From assembly GCA_902537895.1 (NCBI GenBank), contig CACBCU010000003.1, positions 20,001 through 84,000 of the forward strand: DNA of 64,000 nt. Direction: 5' to 3'. This DNA comes from an uncultured Pelagibacteraceae bacterium (lineage in GTDB: Bacteria; Pseudomonadota; Alphaproteobacteria; Pelagibacterales; Pelagibacteraceae). Both the position numbers and the translations under genes were made by a program. Shown here one piece after another: positions 2,666 through 34,135 of this stretch. A model generated the notes under the pieces. The model worked only from the letters and a program-made list of their open reading frames with translations. It ran no database searches and was not told the origin of the DNA. Within the stretch, counting starts at the first letter, position 1, and each line of letters begins with the position of its first letter.

Positions 2666-3565
2666 TTAGAAAATTTTTTCTAATGATTTCTTATCAATTT
2701 TTAGTTTAAATAGAATTTTTTCTCTATTATCACTGTAGATAAAATATTGTTTGTCCTTGATACATAATGTTTTTATCTTTGCTTTTATTTTTTTCTTACT
2801 AAATATGTTTAATATTATAGGCAAGATACCTCCATATTCTGTATTCTCATCATAGATAACTATTTCATCATAATTAATACAAATATCGATAAATTTTTTA
2901 TAATTAAAATTTTTTAATCTGAACAAGTTTAATACATCGATCTTTTTTTTATCAGATACCTCATTAGCAATTTTACAAAAATACCCAGTGGTAATAATTA
3001 CTTTTTTTGATGTTTTATATTTTTTTGTAAATTGAAAGCCTTGATTCAGATTATAAATTATATTTGAATTATAATTTTGGACACCTTTTTCTAATCTCAC
3101 ATAGACAGGCCCTTTAATTTTAAATAAATTTTTAGATACAATATTAGCCAAGTTATTATCTGAAATGTTTATTATTTCAAATTCAGGAATTAAATTAAAT
3201 AATTGAATATCTTGTATTCCATGATGAGTGGGACCGTCATTTGAAAAAGAAAAACCAGGACCCACTCCAATAATTTTACAATTTGCATTATGACTTGCGA
3301 TATTAAACTTTAATTGTTCATAACACCTGAATGTCAAAAAAGTACAGAAACCATAAACTAAGGTTTTTTTGTTATTAGCACCTAAACCTGCAGCCATATT
3401 AACTAAGTTTTGTTCTGCAACTCCCGCATCAATAAATCTCTCATTTGTTTTTATTGATTGAAGACTATAAACATCAGCATCATTAGTAAGAATGTACATT
3501 GTTTTATCTTTTAAAAATTGATTCTTTATATTTTCAAAAAAAATGTCTCTGATATCTTTTTTCAT
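2666..3565 (-). CDS. Transketolase C-terminal-half subunit (pyrimidine-binding plus C-terminal domain)
   Basis: 'RFIDAGVAEQNLVNMAAGLG', 'GPGFSFSNDGPTHHGIQDIQLF': split transketolase signatures. Confidence 0.85.
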   Translation of the reverse strand: MKKDIRDIFFENIKNQFLKDKTMYILTNDADVYSLQSIKTNERFIDAGVAEQNLVNMAAGLGANNKKTLVYGFCTFLTFRCYEQLKFNIASHNANCKIIGVGPGFSFSNDGPTHHGIQDIQLFNLIPEFEIINISDNNLANIVSKNLFKIKGPVYVRLEKGVQNYNSNIIYNLNQGFQFTKKYKTSKKVIITTGYFCKIANEVSDKKKIDVLNLFRLKNFNYKKFIDICINYDEIVIYDENTEYGGILPIILNIFSKKKIKAKIKTLCIKDKQYFIYSDNREKILFKLKIDKKSLEKIF

Positions 3566-3568
3566 ATT

Positions 3569-4363
3569 TTAGTTTTGTAGATTTTTTAATACTTGAGTAA
3601 TTAATCTTTTATCGGGTTGGCCATGACTATATTGTAAGCTATTTTCGAATTCCGGAATTCCATTCCCTTTGATAGTATTAAAAATAGCTAATGATGATTT
3701 ACTTTTATCAATAATTTTTAAGTATTTAAAAATATTAATTAAATTATGGCCATTTCCTCTAAAAATATTCAAATTTAGTTGATTCAATACTTTTTTATCC
3801 AAAACTTCTTTTTTTTCTATAAAGCTACTCGCCGATAATTTATTTCTATCAATGATGATATGAACATTCTTAATTTTTTTTTCAGAAATAAAAAATAATC
3901 CCTCCCAAACAGATCCTTCATCAATTTCCGCATCTCCAACGATAGTAATAATTTTTTTTTTGGGATTTGCTATAGCCATTCCTATTGAGACACCTATTGA
4001 GTGACCTAAAGAACCAGTGCTCCAATCAACATATTTGCAATTGTAGGTGTCTAATTGGCCCCCGAATTTATTATTTTTAATTTGACTAAAATATTCTTTT
4101 TCACTTAATAAATTGAGATCCATTAATATTGTATAAAATATACCTAATGCGTGTCCTTTACTTAAAATTAGCTTATTTCTTATCTTTGATGTTTTGGTTA
4201 AATCAATTTTATTGCTATAGATCAAGCACACAATTATATCCAATACTGATAAGCTTCCACCTATATGATATTTTACTCCTTTGCTAATGAGCTTTAAAAA
4301 GTTATATCTTATTTCTTTAATTTTTTTTTTTAATTTAAGTATCTTTTTAGAATTCTTTACCAT
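3569..4363 (-). CDS. Transketolase N-terminal-half subunit (diphosphate-binding)
   Basis: 'LILSKGHALGIFYTIL', 'GSLGHSIGVSIGMAIA', 'TIVGDAEIDEGSVWEGLFF', 'HGQPDKR'. Confidence 0.87.
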   Translation of the reverse strand: MVKNSKKILKLKKKIKEIRYNFLKLISKGVKYHIGGSLSVLDIIVCLIYSNKIDLTKTSKIRNKLILSKGHALGIFYTILMDLNLLSEKEYFSQIKNNKFGGQLDTYNCKYVDWSTGSLGHSIGVSIGMAIANPKKKIITIVGDAEIDEGSVWEGLFFISEKKIKNVHIIIDRNKLSASSFIEKKEVLDKKVLNQLNLNIFRGNGHNLINIFKYLKIIDKSKSSLAIFNTIKGNGIPEFENSLQYSHGQPDKRLITQVLKNLQN

Positions 4364-6026
4364 AAATTTTTTGATTAGGATCTGTTACAACTTCTATTAA
4401 GTATGGTTGATTATTAGAAAGAATTTTTTTTAATTTTGAATTAATTTCTTTTTCTTTATTTATAATTTCATATTTTAAATCAAAGGCTTTAGCTATTTGA
4501 TGAAAATTTAAAGTACCCACACCAGTTAAATCTTCTGTATCAAGCCTATTACCAGCAAAGAAATTATCTTGCCATTTCTTCATCGAAACATAACCACCAT
4601 TATTGATTACAAATGTTTTAATATTAAGTTTATAATGTGAAATTGTTTTAAGTTCTTGTATATTAAGTTCTATTGATCCATCCCCTGTCACTGAGAGAAC
4701 TTGACCATTCTTATCACTAACAGCTGCTCCAATCGACAAAGGCAAAGATAGCCCCATCGCTGCATTAGCTCCTGAAGATATTTCTTTGCCACCATTATTG
4801 AAATGCCAAGCTTGTCCACCAATATAGTAATTTGATCCTGCATCTGTAACTAGAGTGTGTTTTTTTGTACATTTATTTCCCAGTAGATACATAAACCTAT
4901 AAAGGTCTATTGGATTCCTTTTACTATAAAGATTTGGAATAACGTCTTTAGATTTCTGGATATTACAAAATTTTAACCAATCATTAAAGTTTGGGAATTT
5001 TGTTTTCGATGCTAATTCTAAAAACTTAGGTATAAATGATTCTAGATTAGCAATTACTTTTTGATTTATTACTTTAAGGTCTAAATTTAACTCATCTTTA
5101 TCATTATTTATGGATACACAGTATGCGTTTTTTGCAAATGTTTTGGGATTTCCTAAGCAAAAAGTAGGAGAAAACCTATTGCCAAAAGAAATCAAAAGAT
5201 CACAGTCATCTGTAATTTTTTTTGAGTGCGGAACTCCTTTTATTCCACATAAGCCAAGATTTTGTTTATGTGAATAAGGGAATAAGTCATTAGCAAACCT
5301 AGTTGTAATAAAAGGAATTTTTGTTTTTGATAGTAGCTTTTTAAAATTGTTAACTTGATTTGATTGCTTTAACCCATTTCCAATTGCGAATAGAGGTTTT
5401 TTTGAATTTTTAATTATTTCAATTATTTTGAGTATATCTTTATTATAATTTGCTGTTCTTTGTTTAGGAGGGTAATATTTCTTAAGTTTATTTGGACTCT
5501 TTATTTTAACTGACTGGATATCCAATGGTACTTCGATCCATACAGGGCCTGGCCTCCCAGAATTTGCCATATACAAAGCTTTTTGAACTAAGTACAAACA
5601 TTTTTTAGGATCATCTATTTTAACTGCATATTTTGTTATTTTATCTAAGATTCTAGTTATACTAAATTCTGCTGTGCCAAGTGTTCTAATATTAAGACTT
5701 TTATAAGTATCAGCGCAAAATCTACTTTCTACTTGACCGCTTATTACAATTATTGGTGCACTATCTACAAATGCCTCTGCTAATCCAGGCAAAGCATTAG
5801 TTGCACCTGGACCTGCGGTTACACAGACTGCACCCATTTGATTTTTTGATTTTGCATATGCCTCAGCCATCATAGGTGCAGCAGCTTCATTCCTTGCTGC
5901 GTAATACTTTATACCAGTTTGTTCAATTGCATCGTTTAGATACATAGCACCATAGCCTGTAAGCATAAAAATATCTTTAATTGAATTTTTTTTTAATTCT
6001 AAAGCAATTATTTCAGCAACATTCAT
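4347..6026 (-). CDS. Acetolactate-synthase-like ThDP-binding enzyme
   Basis: 'ARNEAAAPMMAEAYAK' (catalytic Glu region), 'VTAGPGATNALPGLAEAFVDSAPIIVISGQV', ThDP motif 'TGDGSIELNIQELKTISHYKLNIKTFVINNGGY'. Confidence 0.9.
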   Translation of the reverse strand: MNVAEIIALELKKNSIKDIFMLTGYGAMYLNDAIEQTGIKYYAARNEAAAPMMAEAYAKSKNQMGAVCVTAGPGATNALPGLAEAFVDSAPIIVISGQVESRFCADTYKSLNIRTLGTAEFSITRILDKITKYAVKIDDPKKCLYLVQKALYMANSGRPGPVWIEVPLDIQSVKIKSPNKLKKYYPPKQRTANYNKDILKIIEIIKNSKKPLFAIGNGLKQSNQVNNFKKLLSKTKIPFITTRFANDLFPYSHKQNLGLCGIKGVPHSKKITDDCDLLISFGNRFSPTFCLGNPKTFAKNAYCVSINNDKDELNLDLKVINQKVIANLESFIPKFLELASKTKFPNFNDWLKFCNIQKSKDVIPNLYSKRNPIDLYRFMYLLGNKCTKKHTLVTDAGSNYYIGGQAWHFNNGGKEISSGANAAMGLSLPLSIGAAVSDKNGQVLSVTGDGSIELNIQELKTISHYKLNIKTFVINNGGYVSMKKWQDNFFAGNRLDTEDLTGVGTLNFHQIAKAFDLKYEIINKEKEINSKLKKILSNNQPYLIEVVTDPNQKIYGKEF

Positions 6027-6042
6027 ACAAATTAAATAGGTT

Positions 6043-6921
6043 CTATATCATTTTAAATTTTTTTAAAATACTATTTATGTAATAGTGCCTTGTATGATTG
6101 GCAGCACCAATTATAAAGAATAACATCTTTGCAAACTTATTATCAATAAATTTAAAATAATACTTGTTATTAAAAAGCCATTTCCCTAGATTTCCTTGAG
6201 GTTTATTTATAAGTTTTGGAGAATTGTCAAATTTTTCAATTTTTTTATTCCTAATTTTTGATAAGTATGGTTTTTTTTTATTTCTCAACCAAATTTTATC
6301 TAAGTTATTTCTATCATGACTCCAATAAGTAGGTAGTAGATTGTTTGATTTATTGTGTTTTTTATTTTCATCAACAAATATTTTTGAATAATAAAAACTT
6401 AATTTATATGATTGTCTTAATCTTAAATATAAATCTATATCTGATAAAACCGCAATAAATGTTTTATCATATCCTCCAACTTTAATTACATCTTCTTTTT
6501 TCATCATAGGCGCAATAGGCAAATTAGTAGTATTATCCCAAGGTAAATAGTTATAATCATATTTTTTTGAAGGAGTACCACTTATACTATATTTGCATGA
6601 AATTAGCTTTTTGGGATTTGATTTAGTTTTTTTATACAGATAATAAAGTGGATCATTATGACCTTTTAATAAACAATCATCTGCCATTTGTATTATATAA
6701 TTACCAGTTGAATGAAGCAATCCTAATTGCAAACAGTGAGTGGGTTTAAGATATGACTCAATGAATTTAACTTTTTTTTTGAATTTTTTTGAATTAAAAT
6801 TAAAAGGTCCAATAAAAATTATTTCATAATCTATATTTTTTGAAGATAAGTTCTTATAAATATTATTTAAGTTTTTTGGATTATTGGTAGGAATAATTAC
6901 ACTTATTTTATCATCGTTCAT
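6043..6921 (-). CDS. GT2-like glycosyltransferase (local paralog family, member B)
   Basis: 'YEIIFIGPFN', 'YLKPTHCLQLGLLHSTGNYIIQMADD', 'GGYDKTFIAVLSDIDLYLRL', C-terminal 'NKPQGNLGKW'. Confidence 0.77.
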   Translation of the reverse strand: MNDDKISVIIPTNNPKNLNNIYKNLSSKNIDYEIIFIGPFNFNSKKFKKKVKFIESYLKPTHCLQLGLLHSTGNYIIQMADDCLLKGHNDPLYYLYKKTKSNPKKLISCKYSISGTPSKKYDYNYLPWDNTTNLPIAPMMKKEDVIKVGGYDKTFIAVLSDIDLYLRLRQSYKLSFYYSKIFVDENKKHNKSNNLLPTYWSHDRNNLDKIWLRNKKKPYLSKIRNKKIEKFDNSPKLINKPQGNLGKWLFNNKYYFKFIDNKFAKMLFFIIGAANHTRHYYINSILKKFKMI

Positions 6922-7454
6922 TTTTGATTATAAAAATCACCATTTTCTATAAATAAATACGAATAAGAGTTTTTATCCAAATAGGCTTTTTTAAATGCTG
7001 GAAAGATTTGTTTTGGAGAGTTTAAAAAAACGACTTTAACTTCTGTCAATATCTCTTTAAAAATTTTTGTGTAATCTTGGGTATGTTGTGGTCCGCCATC
7101 TAACGGTTTTTTTGAACCAATAGAGGTTCTGATTATTACTCTTGGTTTAATTTCGTTTCGAGACATTTTTCTAACTTTGTCTAAGTGATTTACGAACTGG
7201 TTGAAAGCAAGTATTAAAAAATCAAATCTTGGATAGCAAGTAATTGGAACAAATCCGTTCATTGCTAAACCCATAGACATCCCCATCTGTGCATCTTCAA
7301 ATACTGGCATTTCCAATTTCTTTTTACTTGGCACTCCTATAAGAGTATTATAAATCGCATTACCTGAAAATTCTACTGATTGACCTAAAAATATTGTATT
7401 TGGTTTTTTAGCCAAATAGTTCATTGATCTGATTAGTTCCTTTTTATATTTCAT
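6918..7454 (-). CDS. Minimal E1-beta-like (2-oxoacid dehydrogenase beta / transketolase pyrimidine domain) protein
   Basis: 'LGQSVEFSGNAIYN...MPVFEDAQMGMSMGLAMNGFVPITCYPRFDFLILAFNQFVNHLDK': E1-beta N-terminal domain only, 178 aa. Confidence 0.8.
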   Translation of the reverse strand: MKYKKELIRSMNYLAKKPNTIFLGQSVEFSGNAIYNTLIGVPSKKKLEMPVFEDAQMGMSMGLAMNGFVPITCYPRFDFLILAFNQFVNHLDKVRKMSRNEIKPRVIIRTSIGSKKPLDGGPQHTQDYTKIFKEILTEVKVVFLNSPKQIFPAFKKAYLDKNSYSYLFIENGDFYNQK

Positions 7455-7460
7455 GTTAAC

Positions 7461-8054
7461 CTAAAATAAAATCCATCCACCTGTTCCATGATGTGGATAC
7501 TTTCTTTTATACTTATAGTAAATTACATCTTTTGGTTTTTTACTTTTTTTTACCCACACTTTATTGGTAGGAGTATTTGTGCTTAAGCCATTATCTTCTA
7601 TTACAAACTTCAATGGTAGTTTATGGTTTTTTGCATACTTGTAACACTCATGAAACATCCCTGTTTCAAAAGTCATATCTCCAATGAAAACCCAAACCTT
7701 ATTAGATTTTTTTTTATTTTTTAGTTTGATGGATTTTGCAACACCTAGTGCTATAGGTATTATTCCCGCTACAATTGCAGAAGAGTAAAATTTATATTTA
7801 ATATTATTTATTCCCATACTTCTTCCAGCAACAATCTCTTTTTTTAACCAGTCTTTAGGAATTCCTTTTAGAAGTGCATGATAATGATTTCTCCATGTTG
7901 AAAACACCCAATCATTTTTTTTAATCTTTTTAAAAATTTTTATCAATTGATTCTCATTATTTCCAGACAGATGTATTGGTGCTCTTATTTTTCCTGACTC
8001 ATACACTTTCTTAATATCCAGCTCAAAATCGAGCAGTTCTTTTTTTGTAATCAT
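7461..8054 (-). CDS. Minimal E1-alpha-like ThDP-binding protein
   Basis: 'WVFSTWRNHYHALLKGIP', 'VAGIIPIALGVAKSIK', ThDP motif 'IGDMTFETGMFHECYKYAKNHKLPLKFVIEDNG'; 197 aa. Confidence 0.82.
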   Translation of the reverse strand: MITKKELLDFELDIKKVYESGKIRAPIHLSGNNENQLIKIFKKIKKNDWVFSTWRNHYHALLKGIPKDWLKKEIVAGRSMGINNIKYKFYSSAIVAGIIPIALGVAKSIKLKNKKKSNKVWVFIGDMTFETGMFHECYKYAKNHKLPLKFVIEDNGLSTNTPTNKVWVKKSKKPKDVIYYKYKRKYPHHGTGGWILF

Positions 8055-9062
8055 TTATCTATCAAGAAAATTATTTTTTTTGACCTTTTGTCTCCAATAA
8101 TTCAATAAGTCAAGCATTGTTTTTTCAAACTTTATTTTTGGTTTCCATCCTGTATGATTTTGAAATTTGGACGTATTTGGAACTTGTAGGTCTGCATCTA
8201 TAGGTCTTAGTCTTTTTTTATCTGTTATAATTTTAATGTTTTTGAATTTGGAGATTGAAATTAAATAATCCAACATATCTCCAATTTTACATGTAAAATT
8301 CCCTCCTATGTTATAGGCTTGTCCAGGTTTGGGTTTTTTTGTCAAAAGTATATAATAAGCTCTAACGGCATCTCTGACATCAGCAAAAGTTCTTAATGAA
8401 TCTAAATTTCCAACTTTAATTAAAGGCGGATTTTTTTTTGCTTCAATTAAAGCAATTTGTTTTGCAAAAGTAGACTCTGCGAAAACATCACCTCTACGCG
8501 GTCCAGTGTGTGTAAACATCCTAGTAACCATTACTTTCATATTATATGCTTCAAAAAAATACCTACCAATTAGATCAGTCCCTACTTTAGAAATAGCATA
8601 AGGAGAAGCTGGATGAAAATTGCAATTTTCATCAATTGGTATTTTATCTTTTGAAACTTTACCAAATATTTCAGATGAGGAACATACATGAATATAGGGT
8701 TTGTATTTAGATTTATTAATAGCGTTAAGAAGATTGTACGTACCTATTACATTTGTGTCTAAAGTTAAATTAGCCTCAGTAAAGCTTGTTTGAGGATAGC
8801 TTTGAGCTGCTAAGTGAAAAACATAGTCAGGCTTGGATTGATTGATACATTCAACTAGAGAACTATAATCATTTAAATCTCCATAGATAAAATTTACTCT
8901 TGATTTTTTTTTGTTAGCTTCATTAAGTAAGTGTTCTATGTTTTCAAGAGGACTTCTCCATCTTGCTAGACCATAAATTTTCCACTTCGTATTTTTTAAT
9001 AAATAATCAGTTAAATGTGAACCAACCATTCCAGTAATTCCAGTAATAAGTGCAGATTTCAT
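8055..9062 (-). CDS. NAD-dependent epimerase/dehydratase, GDP-mannose 4,6-dehydratase-like
   Basis: 'LITGITGMVGSHLTDYLL' Rossmann motif, 'VFHLAAQSYPQTSF', 'SPYAISKVGTD' (YxxxK). Confidence 0.88.
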   Translation of the reverse strand: MKSALITGITGMVGSHLTDYLLKNTKWKIYGLARWRSPLENIEHLLNEANKKKSRVNFIYGDLNDYSSLVECINQSKPDYVFHLAAQSYPQTSFTEANLTLDTNVIGTYNLLNAINKSKYKPYIHVCSSSEIFGKVSKDKIPIDENCNFHPASPYAISKVGTDLIGRYFFEAYNMKVMVTRMFTHTGPRRGDVFAESTFAKQIALIEAKKNPPLIKVGNLDSLRTFADVRDAVRAYYILLTKKPKPGQAYNIGGNFTCKIGDMLDYLISISKFKNIKIITDKKRLRPIDADLQVPNTSKFQNHTGWKPKIKFEKTMLDLLNYWRQKVKKNNFLDR

Positions 9063-9120: not shown

Positions 9121-10035
9121 ATGAGAATTAATTCAAAAGTGCTGTCCACTATATTTCGTACTAATAAAAATGAAATTAATAAATTTTGCTCACATTTATT
9201 AAAAAAAAAATTAAATTTTTCTTACATTAAAGGTTTAGAGAGAGACAAAGTTTTAATAAAAATTTTAAAAAGAATTACATCTGATCAACAGATTATAGCC
9301 GGAAAAGGAAGAACAAAAAAATGGCAAGATGGGTGGAGAGAAGCTTTAACCTTATATAAAAAATCTAATTCTTTGACACCTAAGTTTTATACTGCAAGAG
9401 AAAACAAATATTTTAGACTTAATGGAGAACTAATAAAAAGTAAAAATTCTAATTTCGAGGTAGGTATGGTAAATTTATTTAGAAATTGGTACTTCAAAAA
9501 ATATTTTGAAAATATTGAAGATATTTATGAATTTGGAGCTGGCACAGGTCATAATATGGTTGAGTTATCAAAAATTTATCCAGACAAAAATTTATATGCT
9601 TCTGATTTTGTACCTACCTCAGTCAATTTATTAAAATTGGTCTCAAAAAAAAAAAAAATGAAAATGAAATGTTTTCAATTTAATATGGTAAAACCAAACA
9701 AGAGATTAAAAATTAAAGAGGGGTCTGCTATATATACTTCAGGTGCTTTAGAACAATTGTCAGGTAAAATTTATGATTTTATAAATTTTACTTTGTCAAA
9801 AAAACCAAATATAGTTATTCATGTTGAACCAGCACCTCAGTTTTATAATACAAAAAAACTTGCAGATTTTACTGCAGATTTTTTTCAGAGAAAGAGAGGA
9901 TATACTGATAATTTATTAGATTACCTAACATTGCTAGAGAGTAAAAAAAAAATTAAGATTATAAAAAAAATGAAGAGTCCATTTGGCAGTTTAATGATTG
10001 AGGGCTACAATTTTATAGCATGGAGACCAAAGTAA
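9121..10035 (+). CDS. Putative sugar O-methyltransferase (paralog of 18814-19734)
   Basis: SAM motif 'IYEFGAGTGHNMVEL'; 'IHVEPAPQFY', 'GSLMIEGYNFIAWRPK'. Confidence 0.8.
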   Translation: MRINSKVLSTIFRTNKNEINKFCSHLLKKKLNFSYIKGLERDKVLIKILKRITSDQQIIAGKGRTKKWQDGWREALTLYKKSNSLTPKFYTARENKYFRLNGELIKSKNSNFEVGMVNLFRNWYFKKYFENIEDIYEFGAGTGHNMVELSKIYPDKNLYASDFVPTSVNLLKLVSKKKKMKMKCFQFNMVKPNKRLKIKEGSAIYTSGALEQLSGKIYDFINFTLSKKPNIVIHVEPAPQFYNTKKLADFTADFFQRKRGYTDNLLDYLTLLESKKKIKIIKKMKSPFGSLMIEGYNFIAWRPK

Positions 10036-10036
10036 A

Positions 10037-10825
10037 TTGAATTTTAATTTAAAAAAAAAAAATGTTTTTATATCAGGTGGGTCGCACGGGATAGGACTTG
10101 CTTGTGCAAAACTTTTTGCAGAATATGGTGCAAATATAATTACTTTTTCTAGAGATAAAAAAAAAATTAAGAACGCAAAAAAAATACTTTCAAATTATAA
10201 AGTAAGAAATTTAGTAGAAGAAGGTGATATTTTGGATCCACTTTTTCCTCAACATTTTGCAAAAAAAACCCTTAAACAATTTAAAAAAATTGATATTTTG
10301 ATCCACAATGTTGGTGGCGGTGGAAGGTGGGGAAATGAAGATTTATTCAAAACTAATGATAAAGTATGGGATGAGGTTTATGAAAAAAATAATAGAGGGG
10401 TAATTATTTTTTCAAAATATTTTTTACCCTCTATGGTAAAAAATAATTGGGGAAGAGTAATTGCAATCGGATCAATATGTGGAATAGAAGCAAGAAAAGA
10501 AGATAGAATTTGGTTTAATGCTGCAAAATCTGCTCAACACGCAATAATTAAATCTTTCTCACACAAGCATGCATTTACAAAAAAAAATATAACTTTTAAC
10601 TCTATATCCCCAGGCCCGATATTAATTAGAAACACAGGATGGGATTTTGAAAAAAAAAAAAATCCGAAAAAATTTAAAAATTTTATTAACTCTAATATTC
10701 CAGTTAACATGATTGGAGTACCAGAAGATGTAGCAAAATTGTGTTTGTTTTTAGCATCTAATAATTCTAATTATATTAATGGTAGCAACATTGTAATTGA
10801 TGGAGGTGTCACCAATGCAATTTAG
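10037..10825 (+). CDS. SDR-family oxidoreductase (TTG start)
   Basis: 'VFISGGSHGIGLACAKLFAE', 'IHNVGGGG', C-terminal 'YINGSNIVIDGGVTNAI'. Confidence 0.9.
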   Translation: MNFNLKKKNVFISGGSHGIGLACAKLFAEYGANIITFSRDKKKIKNAKKILSNYKVRNLVEEGDILDPLFPQHFAKKTLKQFKKIDILIHNVGGGGRWGNEDLFKTNDKVWDEVYEKNNRGVIIFSKYFLPSMVKNNWGRVIAIGSICGIEARKEDRIWFNAAKSAQHAIIKSFSHKHAFTKKNITFNSISPGPILIRNTGWDFEKKKNPKKFKNFINSNIPVNMIGVPEDVAKLCLFLASNNSNYINGSNIVIDGGVTNAI

Positions 10826-14529: not shown

Positions 14530-15528
14530 ATGGAAAAAAATAAATTATTATCTTTTTTTAGAAATAAAAAAGTAATTGTTACAGGTGGAACAGGTCTAAT
14601 AGGAAGATCCGTTGTAAATAAATTGTGTGATTATGAAGCAAAAGTCACGATAATTTCTTTGGACAAAATTAATGTAGACGATAGAGCACAACATGTTTTT
14701 GGTGATTTAACGGATTTTAATTTTTGTAAAAAAGTTTCTAAAAATCAAGATTATGCACTTCATATGTCAGGTATTAAAGGTTCAGTAAAAGTGACGATTG
14801 AAAAGCCAGCAAGTTTTTTCGTACCTTTATTAATGATGAATACTAACTTCCTAGAAGCCTGTAGACAAAATCTCATAAAAAAACTAGTTTATACTAGTTC
14901 AATCGGCGCTTATTCTAGTAAAGAAATTTTCAAGGAGGAAGATTCAAGTTTTTCTGAACCACCTATGGATATGTTTCCTGGGTGGGCAAAACGTATAGCA
15001 GAGCTACAAATTCAAGCTTATAAAAAACAATATGATTTAAAAGATTATTATATTGTAAGACCCTGCAACGTTTATGGACCTGGTGACAATTTTGATCCTG
15101 AAAATGCAATGGTTATTCCAACATTAATGAATAGGATTTATAATAAAGAAAATCCAGTTGTAATTTGGGGTGATGGATCTTCAATCAGAGATTTTGCATA
15201 TGCAGAAGATGTTGCCGATGGGGTAATTTTAACTTTAATAAATGGAACAGGTAACCAAGAGTTTCTAAATTTAGGAAGCGGAAAGGGATATACAATTAAA
15301 CAATTAGTTGAAAATCTTTCAAAAGTACAAAAATTTAATTATGAATTTGACACTACTAAAAACTCCGGCTTTCCAAGAAGAATAATGAATATAGATAATG
15401 CAAAAAAAATTATTGGATACAACCCAAAAGTTGATTTGGAGGAGGGTCTTAAAAGAACTTGGAATTGGTACATTAACAATAAAAATGAAAATGATTTAAG
15501 ACATAATTACTTTAAAAATGACAGTTAA
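14530..15528 (+). CDS. NAD-dependent epimerase/reductase (GDP-fucose synthase-like)
   Basis: 'VIVTGGTGLIGRSVVNKL', 'YTSSIGAYSS', 'RPCNVYGPGDNFD', 'VIWGDGSSIRDFAYAEDVADG'. Confidence 0.88.
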   Translation: MEKNKLLSFFRNKKVIVTGGTGLIGRSVVNKLCDYEAKVTIISLDKINVDDRAQHVFGDLTDFNFCKKVSKNQDYALHMSGIKGSVKVTIEKPASFFVPLLMMNTNFLEACRQNLIKKLVYTSSIGAYSSKEIFKEEDSSFSEPPMDMFPGWAKRIAELQIQAYKKQYDLKDYYIVRPCNVYGPGDNFDPENAMVIPTLMNRIYNKENPVVIWGDGSSIRDFAYAEDVADGVILTLINGTGNQEFLNLGSGKGYTIKQLVENLSKVQKFNYEFDTTKNSGFPRRIMNIDNAKKIIGYNPKVDLEEGLKRTWNWYINNKNENDLRHNYFKNDS

Positions 15529-16039
15529 AACTTATGATAATTGGATTTTGGAACAAACTACATTAGATGGAGTAGTAAAGATTATACCTACTGTTTTTAA
15601 AGATTTTCGAGGGGAATATATAGAGACTTATAATAAAGATTTTATGGTACAAAATAAAATAGATATAAATTTTTTACAAGACGATATCTCAGTTTCAAAA
15701 AAAAATGTATTAAGGGGCATTCATGGAAATCAAGACACATGGAAGTTAATCTCTTGTTTGCATGGATGCTTTCAGCTCATTGTAGTAAATAATGACAAAA
15801 GTTCTAAACAATATAAAAAATGGGAAAGTTTTGATCTGTCATCAGAAAATAGATTACAAGTTTTGGTACCACCAAAATTTGGTAACGGGCACTTGGTTAT
15901 AACTGAAAAGGCGATTTTTCATTATAAACAAAATACTCAATACAATAGAGAGTCGCAATTTACTATTAAGTGGAACGACCCTGAATTTGGATTTAAATGG
16001 AAAATAAATAATCCTATTCTTTCAGACAGAGATAAATAA
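15518..16039 (+). CDS. RmlC-like cupin sugar epimerase
   Basis: 'FKDFRGEYIETYNKDF', 'FLQDDISVSKKNVLRGIHGNQ', 'LVPPKFGNGHLV'. Confidence 0.85.
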   Translation: MTVKTYDNWILEQTTLDGVVKIIPTVFKDFRGEYIETYNKDFMVQNKIDINFLQDDISVSKKNVLRGIHGNQDTWKLISCLHGCFQLIVVNNDKSSKQYKKWESFDLSSENRLQVLVPPKFGNGHLVITEKAIFHYKQNTQYNRESQFTIKWNDPEFGFKWKINNPILSDRDK

Positions 16040-16041
16040 AT

Positions 16042-16989
16042 ATGCAAAAAATATTAGTCACTGGTGGCTCAGGATTTATTGGAACAAATTATTTAAAATC
16101 AATAGAGGGAAAATTTACCAAAATAAGATCTAATTATTTTCAAAATGATAATTTTTTAAAAGTGAATGGTGTAGACTATATTAAAGCTGATTTAGAAAAT
16201 GTTTCAGATTGTAAAGAGTTATGTGAGGATATCGATATAGTAGTAATGTGTGCAGCAAATACCTCTGGAGCAGCAATTATAGAAAAAACCCCATTAGTCC
16301 ACCTAACACCTAATATAAGAATGAATTTAAATATGCTTGAGGCAGCATATGAATGCGGTGTAAAGAAATTTGTTTTTATTAGTAGTAATACAGTCTATCC
16401 ACATGTTGATTATGCTGTCAAAGAAGGTGACTCAAAATATTCTTTTTTTGAAAAATATCATGTAGTTGGATGGATGAAAAAATTTACTGAGGAGGTTTGT
16501 GAAATTTACTCCAAAAAAATCAAAAAAAAAATGACTACAATAGTGGTAAGGCCTGGTAATTTATATGGCCCCTATGATAAATTTGATATTGAGAAATCGA
16601 AAGTTATTGCCTCACTAATAAGAAAAGTTGTTGAAAAACAAAATCCAATAAATGTCTGGGGCGATGGTAAAGATTTTAAAGATTTTCTTTATATCGATGA
16701 TTTTGTTGAAGGTTTGAATAAAGTTGTATTTGATATAAATAAATTTGAAGTGATTAATTTAGCATCTGGTAAAGGCATTACAATTAAAGAAATATTAAAC
16801 TTAATTATAAAATTAGAAAAGGCAGAAAATTTAGAAGTAGTGTATGATAAATCAAAACCAACAATGATCCCAAAAAGATTAATTAATATTTCTAAAGCAA
16901 AGGAGTTATTAAATTTTAACCCAAAAACTGATATGGAAGATGGTTTACATAAAACTATAAAGTGGTTTAAGGAAAATATAGTTAAATAA
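16042..16989 (+). CDS. NAD-dependent epimerase/reductase (GDP-fucose synthase-like, second copy)
   Basis: 'ILVTGGSGFIGTNYL', 'RPGNLYGPYDKFD', 'NVWGDGKDFKDFLYIDDFVEG'; similar to 14530-15528. Confidence 0.87.
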   Translation: MQKILVTGGSGFIGTNYLKSIEGKFTKIRSNYFQNDNFLKVNGVDYIKADLENVSDCKELCEDIDIVVMCAANTSGAAIIEKTPLVHLTPNIRMNLNMLEAAYECGVKKFVFISSNTVYPHVDYAVKEGDSKYSFFEKYHVVGWMKKFTEEVCEIYSKKIKKKMTTIVVRPGNLYGPYDKFDIEKSKVIASLIRKVVEKQNPINVWGDGKDFKDFLYIDDFVEGLNKVVFDINKFEVINLASGKGITIKEILNLIIKLEKAENLEVVYDKSKPTMIPKRLINISKAKELLNFNPKTDMEDGLHKTIKWFKENIVK

Positions 16990-16990
16990 A

Positions 16991-17995
16991 ATGATAATTT
17001 CGAGGACACCTTTTAGAATATCCTTTTTTGGAGGCGGAACAGACTATCCAGAATGGTATAAACAAAATAAAGGTGCTGTAATCAGCACAACTATAGATAA
17101 ATATTGTTATATTAATTTAAGGTCATTGCCACCATTTTTTGATTACAATTTTCGTTTGCGTTATTTTAAAAAAGAAGAACTTAAAAAAATTTCTGAAATA
17201 AAACATCCCTCAATTAGAGAGTGCTTAAAATTTATGAAATTTAATAACAATGAAAGATTGGAAATTGTTCATAGTGCTGATCTTCCAGCTTTATCAGGCT
17301 TAGGTTCTAGCTCAACATTTACGGTTTCTTTCTTACACTCCCTTCATACTTTAAAAAATGAAAATATTACAAAAAAACAGTTGGCTATGGAAGCAATTCA
17401 TGTTGAGAGGAATTTAATTGGAGAAAAAGTTGGTTCTCAAGATCAAACAGCAGCTGCTTTTGGTGGTCTAAATCATATTGTATTTGAAAATAATGGGAAC
17501 TTAAAAGTAAATAATATTTTCTTTTCCAAAGAGGATACAATCAAGTTAGAGGAAAATTCTATTCTATTATTCACTGGATTACAAAGGAAAGCAAATTTAA
17601 TATCAAAAGATAAAGTGAAAAATATTAAAAGTCGTAAAAATATAAATAGTTTAAATGATATTTCAAAATTAACTGATCAAGCACTAGAGGAAATTTTTTT
17701 TAAAAAAAAAATAGATTTTAAAAAATTTGGTGAAGCTCTTAAAGAGCAGTGGGAATGTAAAAAAAAACTATCCGATAAGGTTTCTAATCATCAAATTAAT
17801 CAGATTTTTTCTGAAGCATATCGCAATGGAGCTTATGGTGGTAAAATCTTAGGTGCAGGCGGTGGTGGCTTTATTTTATTTTTAGTGCCTAAAAACAAAC
17901 AAAAAAAATTCCTTAAAACTTTTTATAAATTTTTGAAAGTTCCATTTAGAGTTGATAACACTGGTAGCCAAATAATTTATTATAGTAAAAATTAA
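16991..17995 (+). CDS. hddA: GHMP kinase, D-glycero-D-manno-heptose 7-phosphate kinase-like
   Basis: 'MIISRTPFRISFFGGGTDYPEWY', 'LPALSGLGSSSTFTVSFLHSL', 'GAYGGKILGAGGGGFILF'. Confidence 0.82.
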   Translation: MIISRTPFRISFFGGGTDYPEWYKQNKGAVISTTIDKYCYINLRSLPPFFDYNFRLRYFKKEELKKISEIKHPSIRECLKFMKFNNNERLEIVHSADLPALSGLGSSSTFTVSFLHSLHTLKNENITKKQLAMEAIHVERNLIGEKVGSQDQTAAAFGGLNHIVFENNGNLKVNNIFFSKEDTIKLEENSILLFTGLQRKANLISKDKVKNIKSRKNINSLNDISKLTDQALEEIFFKKKIDFKKFGEALKEQWECKKKLSDKVSNHQINQIFSEAYRNGAYGGKILGAGGGGFILFLVPKNKQKKFLKTFYKFLKVPFRVDNTGSQIIYYSKN

Positions 17996-18724: not shown

Positions 18725-18817
18725 TGAAATTATTTTTTAAAAAAACAACTCTATCGAGAATATGGTGCAGGCCATACACTTAATCCTTTAGAAAATTTAA
18801 AAAACCAAGTAAACTAA
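18721..18817 (+). pseudogene. Short degraded gene stub between convergent genes
   Basis: ATG overlaps the DUF268 stop; frame 1 gives MMKLFFKKTTLSRIWCRPYT*. Removing one A from the A7 run at 18739-18745 gives MMKLFFKKQLYREYGAGHTLNPLENLKNQVN*. Confidence 0.35.
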
Positions 18818-19734
18818 TTTTTAAATTTCCAAACAAGTAAATTCATTCCATCGATTAATTGACTTCCAAAAGGGCTTTTTAACAATTTAATAATTTTAAT
18901 TTTTTTTTGTTTTTTTAATTGGTAAATTTTCTCTAAAAAATTAGTACTATATTTTTTTTTCTCTAAAGCCATAATCGAAAGGTTATCTTCAAGATTATTA
19001 GTTTTAAAAAGTTGTGGCATCGGCTCAATATGAATACAAATTTTTGGTTTATTTAAAATTATAAAATTAAAAAAATTATCAATTTTTCCAGATAATTGCT
19101 CAATAGACCCACTAGTATAAACTGCAGAATTTTTTTTTAGAAAAATCTTTTTATTTTGTTTTTTCATATCAAATTGAAAACACTTCCAGTTGTAATTTTT
19201 GTAATCAGATATATTTTTGAGTAATTTTACACTATTTTTACTAAAGTCAGACGCAAAGATTTTTTTTTGAGGAAATATTTTCATAAGACTGACTAGATTA
19301 TGTCCAGAACCAGCTCCAAATTCATAAATGTTTTCTATATTTTTTAAATATTTTCTAAAATACCAGTGTCTATAAATGTTAATCATTTCGTATTCGAAAG
19401 ATTTTGCAGATTTAATGAATCTACCGTTTAATCTAAAATATAAATTTGATCTTTTAGAATAAAATTGTGGGATTAAATTTTTAATATTTTTTTTTTTCTT
19501 AAAATTATAATTAATATCTCCCCAGCCATTTTCCCAAATTTTTTTTCTACCTTTAGAAATTATGATTCTATTTTCGGCATTAATTTTTTTTAAAGTATCA
19601 ACTATAGCTTTATCACGCTTTATTGAATCTAATTCAGAATAATAGATTTTTTTTTTTTTAATTAAATTTGAAGTAAAATTATCTATTTTTTTTTCTTCGA
19701 ATAATTCTAATATTTTTTTTTTATTTATTATCAT
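18814..19734 (-). CDS. Putative sugar O-methyltransferase (paralog of 9121-10035)
   Basis: 'IYEFGAGSGHNLVSLMKIFPQKKIFASDF', 'IHIEPMPQLF'. Confidence 0.8.
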   Translation of the reverse strand: MIINKKKILELFEEKKIDNFTSNLIKKKKIYYSELDSIKRDKAIVDTLKKINAENRIIISKGRKKIWENGWGDINYNFKKKKNIKNLIPQFYSKRSNLYFRLNGRFIKSAKSFEYEMINIYRHWYFRKYLKNIENIYEFGAGSGHNLVSLMKIFPQKKIFASDFSKNSVKLLKNISDYKNYNWKCFQFDMKKQNKKIFLKKNSAVYTSGSIEQLSGKIDNFFNFIILNKPKICIHIEPMPQLFKTNNLEDNLSIMALEKKKYSTNFLEKIYQLKKQKKIKIIKLLKSPFGSQLIDGMNLLVWKFKN

Positions 19735-20590
19735 GGAATATACGTTTAAATTTATATAGAAAGTTTCTTAAATAAAAATAAATATTAATATTATAGAATA
19801 TTTTTGAAGTAATAAAAAAATTATATAATTTATTATTATTTGACCATCTACCGGTGGGCTTTTCAGATTTAGTTAAAATTGTTTTTTTTTCAAAATTTTT
19901 GATAGGTTCATTTCTTTTTGTACTAAAATATTCTTTATTGTCTCTCTTGTATGTCCATAACTTAAGCATGAGCTTTCTATCAATTCTCATGTAATCTCTG
20001 CTCATTTTTCTATTGTCCTCTAAAATTTTATCTTCTGTTACTAAAACTGAGGAATTTACTACTTTATAACCATCATTTATCATTCTAAGAAAAAAATCAG
20101 CCTCCATTAAAGTACAAATAAATCTACTATCAAATCGTCCATATCTATACCACAATTCTTTTTTTAGTGGTGGTGACATTGGAAGCAATGCTGACTCATT
20201 TTCATTATTATTTATTTTGAAAGTTTGTTGTTTGGTTTGATCAACATTTCTAAACTTATAAGTTAAACCTAGTAAAATTCTGTCATTTTTATAAATTTCT
20301 AGCTCCTCATCTAATTTATCTAATGGGTTTTTAGTTCTAAATACAAGATCATCTCCAATGTTCATTATATATTCACCTTGAGCATTCTCATATAAAATCT
20401 CCCAACATTGTGCAGGTTTTACATTAGTTTCTATATACTTAAAGTTTTGTGGAAGTTTAAAGTTAGGTTTTCTGGGTCCAGCAAAAATTATTTCAAAATT
20501 AGTATTATTAGATTTTACAGACTGATAAATTTTTAACCAATTTTCAGTTCTTATTGCAGGAGAAACTAAAGAATACTTTATTTCAGGCAT
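19721..20590 (-). CDS. GT2-like glycosyltransferase (local paralog family, member C)
   Basis: 'FEIIFAGPRKP', 'NVKPAQCWEILYENAQGEYIMNIGDDLVF', C-terminal 'SEKPTGRWSNNNKLYNFF'. Confidence 0.77.
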   Translation of the reverse strand: MPEIKYSLVSPAIRTENWLKIYQSVKSNNTNFEIIFAGPRKPNFKLPQNFKYIETNVKPAQCWEILYENAQGEYIMNIGDDLVFRTKNPLDKLDEELEIYKNDRILLGLTYKFRNVDQTKQQTFKINNNENESALLPMSPPLKKELWYRYGRFDSRFICTLMEADFFLRMINDGYKVVNSSVLVTEDKILEDNRKMSRDYMRIDRKLMLKLWTYKRDNKEYFSTKRNEPIKNFEKKTILTKSEKPTGRWSNNNKLYNFFITSKIFYNINIYFYLRNFLYKFKRIFHDNK

Positions 20591-21373: not shown

Positions 21374-22398
21374 AAAATTATACAATTAATTTTTTTCTTT
21401 AAATCATATAAAGCTTTACATCTTATCTTACCATCTAAAACTCTATAAAATCGACCCTTTTTTTTTAAAAGTATTGGTTTCAAGGCTGATTTATGAATTT
21501 TAATCTCGTTTTTTATCATTTCTAGTTCATCAAAATTAAAATTTATATTTTCTAATTTTACTTTATTATTATTTATCAAGTACCATATTTTATTAGGGTC
21601 CACTATTTCAATTTTTCTAATTTCTTTTTCTAAATTAAAAATTTCTTTTTTTAAAATTTTATTATCAATAAATTTATCTAATTTTTTTATTTTATTATAT
21701 CTTTGCAGATTTTTTACTGAAATTATTGGAATTATATTTTTGTATAAAGAAAACAAGAGTGAAATATCTATAAAATCAATCTTATAACTTTTAGAAATTT
21801 TTTTTATTAGTTTTAGTGACTTATTATTAAAACTTTTATATTTGCTCCATCTAATTGGAGAATATCCAAAAACTTTGATATTGTTTTTTTTACAAAATGA
21901 TAAAATTTTTTTTTGAAAATAAAAATTAAAAATATTTAATTCAATTTCAACTGCATTTAAATTTTTGTTAGAAAATTTATGAAATTTTTTTATTTCATCA
22001 AGTCTAGCATTTCCTAATCCTATATTTTTTAAACTTCTGTATTTTTTTAATTTGATTAAATTTTTTACTTTTTTTTTTGAGATAGCTTCATTCGGCCAAT
22101 GAGTAATAAAAAAGTCAATTGTTTTATAGCCACATAATCTTTTATATTCGTCGAATTTTTTTTTTAGAGGAATTTTATCATCCTTTATAAAGTAAGAAGG
22201 TTTTGCAATTATATTGAATTTTAGATTAAGTTTTTTAATGATTCTTAATGATTTGCCATCATGGTATGTTCTAGCTGTATCTATAAGTCTTCCACCATCT
22301 AAATAAAACTTTCTAAAGACGTCTATTCGTTCTTTTAGATTTCCTTTTAATAAATCACCCGTACCTAAACATAATCTATTTACTATTGTTTGACTCAT
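21370..22398 (-). CDS. Aldo/keto reductase with C-terminal ParB-like segment
   Basis: AKR D-Y-K-H residues in 'LIDTARTYHDG', 'IIAKPS', 'FFITHWP'; C-terminal 'SALKPILLKKKGRFYRVLDGKIRCKALYDLKKKINCIIL' resembles ParB/Srx '(K)PI.V...g.Y.viDG..R..A'. Confidence 0.78.
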   Translation of the reverse strand: MSQTIVNRLCLGTGDLLKGNLKERIDVFRKFYLDGGRLIDTARTYHDGKSLRIIKKLNLKFNIIAKPSYFIKDDKIPLKKKFDEYKRLCGYKTIDFFITHWPNEAISKKKVKNLIKLKKYRSLKNIGLGNARLDEIKKFHKFSNKNLNAVEIELNIFNFYFQKKILSFCKKNNIKVFGYSPIRWSKYKSFNNKSLKLIKKISKSYKIDFIDISLLFSLYKNIIPIISVKNLQRYNKIKKLDKFIDNKILKKEIFNLEKEIRKIEIVDPNKIWYLINNNKVKLENINFNFDELEMIKNEIKIHKSALKPILLKKKGRFYRVLDGKIRCKALYDLKKKINCIIL

Positions 22399-23297
22399 TT
22401 TTGATATTTAGTTTTAATGCAACTTCTATAAAAAAGATAAAGCTTAGATTCAATTACTGGTAATTTAAATATTTTTTTAAAAATAAAAAAATATATCTTA
22501 TTTGAAATAAAAAAATAAAATTTATTATTTAATTTCCATCTACCTAAGTTACCCTGTGGTTTGTTTAATTTACTAAAATTATATCCTTGTACTTTATCTA
22601 GTCTGTTTTTTCGCATTTTTAAAAAAATTTTATCTCCAAAAATAGTAGTTGTTCCAATTAAATTTTTTTCAGTCCATAATTCATTCAAAAGTTTCCTATC
22701 TTTACTGTTATAATCTTGATTTAAAGAGTAGCTACTATAATTTTTTTCTTTAACTTGTATGTTGGAGAATAAAACCTTATATCCTTTTTTTAGTAATCTT
22801 AGATATAAATCTAAATCATAAAATGTTGCATTAAATCTTTTATCAAATATTTTGATTTTTCTTAGCAAATCTCTATTAAGTAAAGGACCAATAGGCAAAT
22901 ATGGAGATGCTTTTATTTCTGGATGAAATCTATATGAATTAAAGTCGTAATTTATCTCATTTAATAATCTAAGTGAAACAAGTTTTTTTTTATTTTTTTT
23001 TGCTAATTTTACCCACTTATCTAAAAAATTTTTTTGGCTAAAAAATAAATCATCAGGAAGAAAACTTACAAATTTTCCTTTAGATAATTTGAATGCCTCC
23101 AAGTGACATTGTGGAGGCTTATTGTAAGAATTGATTATTTTTAAGTTTTTTTCATTATAATTACTAAATGGTCCTGCTATTATAATTTCATATTTAATCC
23201 TATTATCCTTAAAATTATCAACTATATTTCGTATAGCAAATTTATTTTTTGAGGAAATTAATATAGATGCTTCTATATTACTCTTAGTTGGTTTCAT
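22395..23297 (-). CDS. GT2-like glycosyltransferase (local paralog family, member D)
   Basis: 'YEIIIAGPFSN', 'NKPPQCHLEAFKLSKGKFVSFLPDD', 'DLDLYLRLLKKGYKV', 'LNKPQGNLGRWKLNNKFYFF'. Confidence 0.77.
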   Translation of the reverse strand: MKPTKSNIEASILISSKNKFAIRNIVDNFKDNRIKYEIIIAGPFSNYNEKNLKIINSYNKPPQCHLEAFKLSKGKFVSFLPDDLFFSQKNFLDKWVKLAKKNKKKLVSLRLLNEINYDFNSYRFHPEIKASPYLPIGPLLNRDLLRKIKIFDKRFNATFYDLDLYLRLLKKGYKVLFSNIQVKEKNYSSYSLNQDYNSKDRKLLNELWTEKNLIGTTTIFGDKIFLKMRKNRLDKVQGYNFSKLNKPQGNLGRWKLNNKFYFFISNKIYFFIFKKIFKLPVIESKLYLFYRSCIKTKYQK

Positions 23298-23302
23298 TTT
23301 TG

Positions 23303-23908
23303 TTAAAACTTTTTACTTGTTATTGAGTCTTCTATTAATTCCATTAAAATATGACCAATACAAATATGAGCTTCTTGAATACGAGCTGTAGAATTTGATT
23401 TTATTATAATATTATTTTTAGATAATTTTTTTGCAGCACCACCATTTTTTCCTAGTAAAGATATTGTTTTAATCTTAAGCTGATTTGCTTTTTTGATCAC
23501 TTTTAGGATATTTTTTGAATTTCCACTCGTTGAAATAGATATTAAAGTGTCATCTTTTTTACCTAATGCTTCAAGCATTCTTGCAAGATATACATCATAA
23601 TTATAATCATTGCTACAAGCTGTCAAAGAAGTTGTGTCTAGGTTAAGTGAAATAGCAGCAATAGGTTTTCTATTTATCTTGGGTCTCAATCTTACAAGAA
23701 GTTCTGTAGCAAGATGATGTGCATCACTAGCTGATCCACCATTTCCACAAAAAATTAACTTACCTCCATTATTTAACGAATTTATACAGATTTTGGATGC
23801 ATTAACTATTTGTGTTAAATTTTCTTTTAATATTCTTTTTTTTACATTGATGTTTTCTTTTAAATCTTTCTCAATTTTTCCAAATATTTTTTTTAATTTA
23901 AGTTCCAT
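23303..23908 (-). CDS. gmhA: SIS-domain phosphoheptose isomerase
   Basis: 'GGKLIFCGNGGSASDAHHLATELLVRL', 'LISISTSGNSKNILKVI', 'EAHICIGHILMELIEDSI'. Confidence 0.88.
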   Translation of the reverse strand: MELKLKKIFGKIEKDLKENINVKKRILKENLTQIVNASKICINSLNNGGKLIFCGNGGSASDAHHLATELLVRLRPKINRKPIAAISLNLDTTSLTACSNDYNYDVYLARMLEALGKKDDTLISISTSGNSKNILKVIKKANQLKIKTISLLGKNGGAAKKLSKNNIIIKSNSTARIQEAHICIGHILMELIEDSITSKKF

Positions 23909-31130: not shown

Positions 31131-32165
31131 ATGAAAAAAAAAATAGCTTTGATATTTGGAATAACAGGGCAAGATGGATCGTTGCTTGCTAGATTTTTAT
31201 TAAAAAAAAATTATTTAGTCCATGGAGTTAAAAGAAGAAGCTCATCTTTTAATACTTCTAGGATAGATGATCTATATGATGCTTATTATAAGAAAAATAA
31301 AAACTTTAAATTACATTATGGTGACGTAACAGATTCACTTAATATTATAACTTTAATCAAAAAAATTAAACCACATGAAATCTATAACTTAGCTGCTCAA
31401 AGCCATGTTAAAGTTAGCTTTGAAACGCCAGAATATACGGCAAACGCGGACGCGTTAGGGTGTTTAAGAATTTTAGAAGCTATAAGAATTTTAAATTATC
31501 AAAAAACAACAAAACTTTATCAAGCCTCAACGTCAGAAATGTTTGGTGATGCGAAAGCGCCTCAAGATGAAAATACTCCTTTTAAACCAAATAGTCCTTA
31601 TGCGGTTGCAAAACTTTATGCCTATTGGATTGTTAAATCTTATAGAACTGCATATGGAATCTTTTCTTGTAATGGAGTGTTATTTAATCATGAAAGTTAT
31701 GCAAGAGGTGAAACATTTGTTACTAAAAAAATTATACAGGCTGCAATTAAGATTAAAAATAAAAAACAGAATATTTTGTACTTAGGAAATCTAAATTCAA
31801 TACGTGATTGGGGAGATGCACGTGATTATGTTGAGTCAATGTGGAAAATTTTGCAACAAAAAAAACCTGACGATTATTTAATATCAACTGGTAAGGGCTA
31901 TACTGTTAAAAATTTTGTGAATAAAGTTTTTAAAAAAATTGGTATTAATTTAATTTGGAAAGGCAAAGGATTAAAAGAAGTTGGTATAAATAAAAGTAAT
32001 AATAAAATTATTATAAAAATTGATAAAGAGTATTTTAGACCTAATGAAGTTAATATTTTAATTGGTAATTCAAAGAAATCTCAAAAAAAATTAAATTGGA
32101 AGCCCAAAATACCTTTTGATAAAATGATAGAGGATATGATTTTATTTGAAGAAAAAAACACTTAG
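31131..32165 (+). CDS. gmd: GDP-mannose 4,6-dehydratase
   Basis: 'ALIFGITGQDGSLLARFLL', 'VHGVKRRSSSFNTSRIDDLY', 'NLAAQSHVKVSFETPEYTANADALG', 'FNHESYARGETFVTKKI'. Confidence 0.93.
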   Translation: MKKKIALIFGITGQDGSLLARFLLKKNYLVHGVKRRSSSFNTSRIDDLYDAYYKKNKNFKLHYGDVTDSLNIITLIKKIKPHEIYNLAAQSHVKVSFETPEYTANADALGCLRILEAIRILNYQKTTKLYQASTSEMFGDAKAPQDENTPFKPNSPYAVAKLYAYWIVKSYRTAYGIFSCNGVLFNHESYARGETFVTKKIIQAAIKIKNKKQNILYLGNLNSIRDWGDARDYVESMWKILQQKKPDDYLISTGKGYTVKNFVNKVFKKIGINLIWKGKGLKEVGINKSNNKIIIKIDKEYFRPNEVNILIGNSKKSQKKLNWKPKIPFDKMIEDMILFEEKNT

Positions 32166-34099: not shown

Positions 34100-34135
34100 A
34101 TGAAAATATTTTTTCATGTAAACAGCCTTGTATGA
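34100..34135 (+). other. Micro-ORF MKIFFHVNSLV* overlapping the start of the next gene
   Basis: ATG at 34100, TGA at 34133-34135 overlaps ATG at 34132; peptide resembles the N-terminus of GT4 glycosyltransferases. Confidence 0.4.

Follow-up and report, generated by a model that had tools for sequence, protein, structure and literature searches.

What would a marine bacterium make with three different thiamine diphosphate (ThDP) enzyme systems encoded together with a sugar-nucleotide dehydratase? The question is raised by an operon at positions 2666–9062 of a 64,000-nucleotide stretch of DNA (the window), which lies on contig CACBCU010000003.1 (C3) of an uncultured Pelagibacteraceae bacterium of the SAR11 group. 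The source assembly (GCA_902537895.1) comprises 1.0 Mb and is 84% complete, and the nearest named relatives of the operon genes are from Pelagibacteraceae. A sequence-only reading had described seven contiguous, tightly packed genes on the minus strand, and this description was borne out: all seven open reading frames are intact from their ATG start to their stop codon, and neighbouring frames are spaced by −17 to +16 bp, negative values denoting overlaps. In transcription order, they encode a GDP-heptose 4,6-dehydratase-like short-chain dehydrogenase/reductase (SDR) of 335 aa (8055–9062; Pfam GDP_Man_Dehyd), a minimal E1-alpha of 197 aa (7461–8054; E1_dh), which is the ThDP/Mg-binding half of a two-subunit ThDP enzyme, a minimal E1-beta of 178 aa (6918–7454; Transket_pyr), its pyrimidine-binding half, a putative glycosyltransferase of 292 aa (6043–6921), a YerE/JanthE-like ThDP lyase of 559 aa resembling acetohydroxyacid synthase (AHAS) (4347–6026; TPP_enzyme_N/M/C), a split transketolase N-half (TktN) of 264 aa (3569–4363; Transketolase_N) and its C-half (TktC) of 299 aa (2666–3565; Transket_pyr and, just under the cut-off, Transketolase_C). 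Pfam and NCBIfam agree on these families, and the NCBIfam matches are all far below the curated cut-offs, indicating that none of the operon proteins is a standard copy. The operon is real and conserved: its gene identities, its intactness, its conservation as a unit, its distinctness from those housekeeping copies that could be located and its linkage to heptose genes are established. Judging from the sequences, we think it somewhat probable that the operon makes one or more C-branched GDP-heptoses for a surface glycan.

We found the complete operon in the same order in the Pelagibacteraceae single-amplified genome AG-359-N03 (locus L116), together with a divergent methyltransferase/SDR gene pair upstream. 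The identities between the two loci are 90% for the dehydratase, 94% for E1-alpha, 96% for E1-beta, 61% for the putative glycosyltransferase, 81% for the AHAS-like protein and 58% for both TktN and TktC. The dN/dS values of the window genes against L116, which are rough as dS is high, are 0.04–0.10 for the dehydratase, E1-alpha, E1-beta and the AHAS-like protein and 0.20–0.24 for the transketolase halves. The recurrence of the whole operon in order and the low dN/dS values indicate that this gene set did not arise by chance. The AHAS-like, TktN and TktC genes, with a short E1 and a dehydratase, recur in L116, in two further SAR11 loci (L117 and L133) and in a gammaproteobacterium (L121); in the last three loci the same ThDP trio is rearranged in order. 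Thus, the synteny in other SAR11 genomes that the sequence-only reading had proposed as a check does exist, for the whole operon in one genome and for the gene set in two others. The full operon with close copies was found in no other of 298 SAR11-order genomes (best AHAS-like protein, 53%; best TktN, 38%).

The operon dehydratase had been taken to point to GDP-4-keto-6-deoxymannose as the substrate of the ThDP enzymes. This assignment did not hold: the dehydratase scores 353 bits against GDP-heptose 4,6-dehydratase (PDB 7us5), its closest characterised relative, versus 134 bits against GDP-mannose dehydratase. GDP-mannose as the substrate of the dehydratase was rejected, GDP-heptose dehydratase being much nearer and a true GDP-mannose dehydratase gene (gmd) existing separately at 31131–32165 (515 bits to TIGR01472, above the cut-off). 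The window furthermore contains heptose supply genes. They are a GmhA-like sedoheptulose-7-phosphate isomerase gene (23303–23908, minus strand; TIGR00441, 174 bits against a cut-off of 209), an HddA-like heptose-7-phosphate kinase gene of the GHMP kinase type (16991–17995, plus strand; best NCBIfam match HddA), whose PDB matches include the heptose kinases 4n3o and 3k85, and a fusion gene of an HddC-like nucleotidyltransferase and a GmhB-like heptose-bisphosphate phosphatase (34132–35394, plus strand), the two halves of which are matched by the GmhB and HddC models separately. An RmlC-like cupin (15518–16039, plus strand; TIGR01221, under the cut-off) is a candidate GDP-4-keto-heptose 3,5-epimerase, and the dTDP- and GDP-heptose epimerases in the PDB match it about equally (120–122 bits). 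Two NDP-sugar SDR genes flank the cupin gene on the same strand. One is GDP-fucose synthase-like and a candidate C4-reductase/epimerase (14530–15528), co-occurring with the dehydratase and RmlC-like genes in L117, L118, L121 and L133, and the other is a second reductase candidate (16042–16989). Because of the dehydratase match and these other GDP-heptose genes, the keto-sugar is likely a heptose and not mannose-derived; the dehydratase probably uses GDP-heptose and probably produces GDP-4-keto-6-deoxy-heptose. In Campylobacter jejuni, a known route starts at sedoheptulose-7-phosphate and passes through GDP-6-deoxy-4-keto-lyxo-heptose to later products (PMC10680097). Like this GDP-6-deoxy-heptose pathway, the window has a set of GmhA, HddA, GmhB, HddC, 4,6-dehydratase, 3,5-epimerase-like and reductase genes; unlike the window, the C. 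jejuni paper names no thiamine enzyme or transketolase (PMC10680097).

The first of the ThDP systems is the AHAS-like protein, for which a comparison with YerE had been suggested. This comparison proved apt, as the best PDB match is JanthE (8rph, 233 bits), followed by AHAS (204 bits), and JanthE is a YerE-like enzyme (PMC12188165). In our IQ-TREE phylogeny, the AHAS-like protein groups with its homologues from L116, L117 and L133 (100/100), and a split (99/96) separates the SAR11 AHAS-like set, PpYerE and JanthE from E. coli AHAS I, yeast AHAS and the own AHAS of this genome, encoded on contig C5. PpYerE corresponds to PDB entry 5ahk. By this tree, the AHAS-like protein falls with YerE/JanthE, apart from the genome's own AHAS. 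It has the three domains of the decarboxylase superfamily and keeps the catalytic Glu (E47) and a GDGS motif. The arginine of the AHAS ‘DDR’ motif, retained in the own AHAS and lost here through a change to SPT, is presumably R276 of E. coli AHAS II, the Arg for the second 2-keto acid; the change is merely supportive, since PpYerE has an Arg at that site. Like YerE of yersiniose A, JanthE and PpYerE, all of them YerE-like lyases, the protein is a decarboxylase-type ThDP enzyme in a sugar locus. It is distant from these lyases in sequence, has the canonical GDG where JanthE has CDG, and is set among heptose genes, whereas the YerE-like lyases belong to a CDP-3,6-dideoxyhexose setting.

The split transketolase has separate, side-by-side PP and PYR/TKC subunits, as split-gene transketolases do. 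An alignment with the full-length housekeeping transketolase of the window (48761–50764) shows that the catalytic and ThDP residues are retained, including the catalytic Glu in the GVAEQ motif of TktC. The second ‘GHP’ histidine is Gln in the TktN clade of the window; this donor-site His is presumably H100 of E. coli TktA. A difference at the fourth transketolase histidine (H261) was set aside, the local alignment being ambiguous. The TktN clade (100/96) consists of the window, L116, L117, L133 and L121, which are exactly the five AHAS-linked loci, and every TktN in it adjoins an AHAS-like gene, with a short E1 and a dehydratase nearby. A transketolase-type step in caryophyllose formation had been offered as a precedent. 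A review credits YerE-like enzymes with caryophyllose and proposes split transketolases for miharamycin and amipurimycin, those in branched-sugar clusters having been reported from Streptomyces only (PMC12247030). Like the latter and the apulose-4-phosphate transketolase AptA/AptB, the window enzyme is a two-gene transketolase with a catalytic Glu and a ThDP motif; its Gln in place of the donor-site His distinguishes it from them. A classical SDR gene lies on the same strand within 2.5 kb, mostly abutting, in 13 of 40 split-transketolase loci, versus none of 32 long E1-alpha and 4 of 81 short E1-alpha genes. This frequent neighbour is comparable to the oxidise-then-branch scheme proposed for miharamycin (PMC12247030). 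In the window, the classical SDR (10037–10825, plus strand; Pfam adh_short_C2), relatives of which directly adjoin split transketolases elsewhere, is on the opposite side of the operon from the split transketolase.

The E1 pair had been likened to AviB1/AviB2, and this likeness extends only to the presence of an E1-alpha/E1-beta pair in a sugar gene set, as in the aKADH2 pairs AviB1/AviB2, Pau11/Pau12 and KbDH-alpha/beta. The AviB homologues Pau11/Pau12, among the E1-type branching enzymes that are characterised or proposed, have 325 and 345 aa (PMC4425429). Unlike them, the window pair has 197 and 178 aa, lacks a transketolase-C domain and belongs to its own monophyletic clade; aKADH2 enzymes are full-length E1s with that domain, and the minimal pair shares with them the E1-type ThDP fold and motif. 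Compared with full-length E1, E1-alpha lacks a short loop, a stretch of about 45 internal residues following the ThDP motif and the C-terminal tail, and E1-beta ends ahead of the transketolase-C domain, as it does in all relatives. The GDM...EDN motif of E1-alpha is conserved in the family, and Glu53 of E1-beta, the candidate catalytic residue, is invariant among 60 relatives. Degraded E1 genes were considered and rejected; the lengths are kept across 64 and 60 relatives, and dN/dS is about 0.04–0.05 against L116. AlphaFold (AF2) models (pLDDT 91 for E1-alpha and 95 for E1-beta) have as nearest folds the E1-alpha of pyruvate dehydrogenase (PDH) and the E1-beta of branched-chain keto acid dehydrogenase and PDH, respectively, the latter with a query TM-score of 0.85–0.89 and with about half of the target, its first half, covered. 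Minimal two-domain ThDP pairs are known in AzcB/AzcC (PDB 9u8q) and sulfopyruvate decarboxylase. Like AzcB/AzcC, the minimal E1-beta is a small PYR subunit without a third domain, although its predicted structure is closer to E1-beta than to AzcB/AzcC (query TM-score 0.60–0.64).

The short E1-alpha proteins form a clade (100/100) separate from the long E1-alpha proteins that SAR11 sugar loci encode. In one scan of a genome collection, among the 80 loci listed of 151 relatives in total, they were found in Pelagibacteraceae, SAR116, Prochlorococcus, Chloroflexi, Nitrospira, Verrucomicrobia, betaproteobacteria, Bacteroidetes, Omnitrophota and archaeal metagenome-assembled genomes (MAGs), a spread that misbinning of MAGs may inflate, although long Nitrospira contigs are mutually consistent. 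From an annotated phage collection, we identified cyanophages S-SM2 (L196:9422–10630) and P-TIM68 (L197:7768–8913), in which the two E1 halves are fused into proteins of 402 and 381 aa. These are annotated as ‘transketolase central region-containing protein’ and encoded in a heptose/lipopolysaccharide gene cluster beside phosphoheptose isomerase. A 735-kb uncultured phage (LR756501; L199) has separate E1-beta (6001–6531) and E1-alpha (7575–8219) genes with a radical-SAM-like gene between them. By phylogeny, then, the minimal E1 pair is a separate monophyletic family present in several bacterial phyla, archaeal MAGs and phages; we found no description of it. Of the 40 relatives whose loci span at least 18 kb of sequence, 34 have E1-beta directly downstream. 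Short E1-alpha exists in 9 of the 298 SAR11-order genomes, all nine of which have HddA, versus 54 of 298 overall (Fisher p=1.2e-7, a value that overstates independence as the genomes are related).

Several side observations concern this family. Five SAR11 sugar loci (L146, L147, L153, L160 and L173) contain both a long (~279/305 aa) and a short E1 pair, and three of them (L146, L147 and L153) have another trio, composed of an AHAS-like protein, a long E1 and a short E1. The idea that AHAS-like and short E1 genes replace each other in collinear clusters was dropped, because two unannotated genes turned out to be a second, longer E1 pair; L146, carrying AHAS-like and short E1 genes together, also ruled it out. 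A DegT/RfbH-like aminotransferase (L037:10869–12050, Z393 and relatives) shows a strong linkage to the minimal E1 genes, in Nitrospira as in further phyla, and could be one of the GDP-heptose 3-dehydratases, a type known from C. jejuni HS:5. A B12-binding radical SAM protein, P-methyltransferase/HpnJ-like by profile, is encoded at 71–1783 of the window, a neighbour that could hint at a phosphonate pathway, and its relatives are common beside HddA and ThDP genes (28 of 40 short E1-alpha loci with at least 18 kb).

Three ThDP enzyme superfamilies are known or proposed to form tertiary alcohols on sugars, namely the YerE-like decarboxylase type, the E1-type aKADH2 and the split-gene transketolases (PMC12247030), and the operon holds representatives of all three. 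We therefore picture the operon as providing the C-branching steps in a GDP-heptose-based pathway to a surface glycan. GmhA, HddA and the HddC/GmhB fusion protein would convert sedoheptulose-7-phosphate to GDP-D-glycero-manno-heptose, from which the first operon gene product would form GDP-6-deoxy-4-keto-lyxo-heptose. Next, the ThDP enzymes would add an acyl-anion equivalent to a ketone of the sugar, the acceptor being GDP-4-keto-6-deoxy-heptose or a ketone generated by an SDR. The donor may be pyruvate or another 2-keto acid for the YerE/JanthE-like enzyme and the minimal E1 pair, and a ketose phosphate or hydroxypyruvate for the split transketolase. The products would be tertiary-alcohol C-branched heptoses, to be reduced and methylated by products of neighbouring genes. 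These substrates, donors and reactions are inferred, and the three enzymes may target one sugar, or two or three. More tentatively, the short E1 pair may found a new, widespread family that makes C-branched or chain-extended nucleotide-activated heptoses, to which SAR11 would add the YerE-like lyase and the split transketolase, so that a single sugar would carry two or more ThDP-derived branches; we consider this a good possibility, if short of an even chance.

It is highly improbable that the three systems are spare copies of primary-metabolism AHAS, PDH E1 and transketolase. Their family-level matches to these enzymes would suit such an origin, whereas the trees, the missing E1 domains, the loss of the AHAS arginine, the presence of the genome's own AHAS and transketolase at other sites and the sugar-locus context oppose it. 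Housekeeping duplicates are rejected by the AHAS, TktN and E1-alpha trees. The earlier proposal of a surface-sugar operon with three non-housekeeping ThDP systems was therefore sustained: the phylogeny does not place all three with housekeeping enzymes, and the unit is not absent from relatives. A housekeeping PDH E1-beta was not located in the 84%-complete assembly.

Several points weigh against C-branched GDP-heptoses as the product. The papers searched yielded no natural C-branched heptose and no article on such sugars; the HddA, GmhA and RmlC-like matches are all under the equivalog cut-offs; the AHAS tree is arbitrarily rooted and has JanthE on a long branch; and the minimal E1 pair tracks HddA (34 of the 40 relatives) more than a GMD-type dehydratase (9 of 40). 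The last of these suggests that the pair might act before the nucleotide sugar is formed, and the main uncertainty is accordingly that it might use sugar phosphates instead. It would then be a ketolase acting on a heptulose or octulose phosphate, either to build or to remodel it, before GmhA/HddA-type enzymes activate this phosphate, and would thereby set the backbone and not the branch. HddA is the closest genomic partner of minimal E1 in phyla without a GMD-type dehydratase nearby, and the fused cyanophage E1 adjoins phosphoheptose isomerase and an HldE-like gene. We nevertheless regard this role as unlikely: in sequence and fold, minimal E1 has 2-oxo-acid E1 enzymes and not transketolase as its nearest neighbours, and sedoheptulose-7-phosphate is already supplied by the housekeeping transketolase. 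Another possibility, real if rather doubtful, is that the operon is a bundle, its ThDP systems belonging to the pathways of two or three distinct branched sugars and merely being co-transcribed. The parts do occur separately in SAR11, with split transketolase in 64, the AHAS-like protein in 18 and short E1 in 9 of the 298 genomes and little genome-level association, and a glycosyltransferase gene sits mid-operon. However, the AHAS-like, TktN and TktC genes are adjacent in all five loci of the one clade, each with a short E1 and a dehydratase.

Three chemically different routes to sugar C-branching are known or proposed, and this is, as far as we found, the first operon with all three. We found no paper on these genes in SAR11, a group among the most abundant bacteria in the ocean. 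The new aspects are the ThDP combination, the heptose instead of hexose setting and a minimal E1 family outside the aKADH2 domain definition. If the proposed pathway is true, C-branched heptoses would be a new glycan class, and the minimal E1 family would be among the smallest ketone-accepting ThDP enzymes. Its existence in phages is a hint that branched heptoses are important at the cell surface, the site of phage attachment. SAR11 bacteria need imported thiamine precursors; three thiamine enzymes for one surface sugar would thus be costly and therefore telling. A ThiE-like protein, identified by eye, is encoded at 44972–45586 of the window and shares its contig with the three ThDP systems.

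The operon gene that had been called GT2-like (6043–6921) is a putative GT-A/GT2-like glycosyltransferase on weak evidence. The name finds no backing in Pfam, where the protein has no match at E<=1, and is kept only through paralogy: the protein is 31–34% identical to those of window genes 1787–2662 and 22395–23297, the latter having a sub-threshold GT2 match (E=0.054). With 19721–20590, these genes make up a single-locus family encoding putative glycosyltransferases of ~290 aa, for which Pfam gives almost no signal. The methyltransferase-like gene divergent from the operon (9121–10035, plus strand) is in the same place in L116 (86%) and L117 (57%). Its product is paralogous to that of 18814–19734, both being methyltransferase-like proteins of ~305 aa; Pfam methyltransferase matches are weak for 18814–19734 and absent for 9121–10035.

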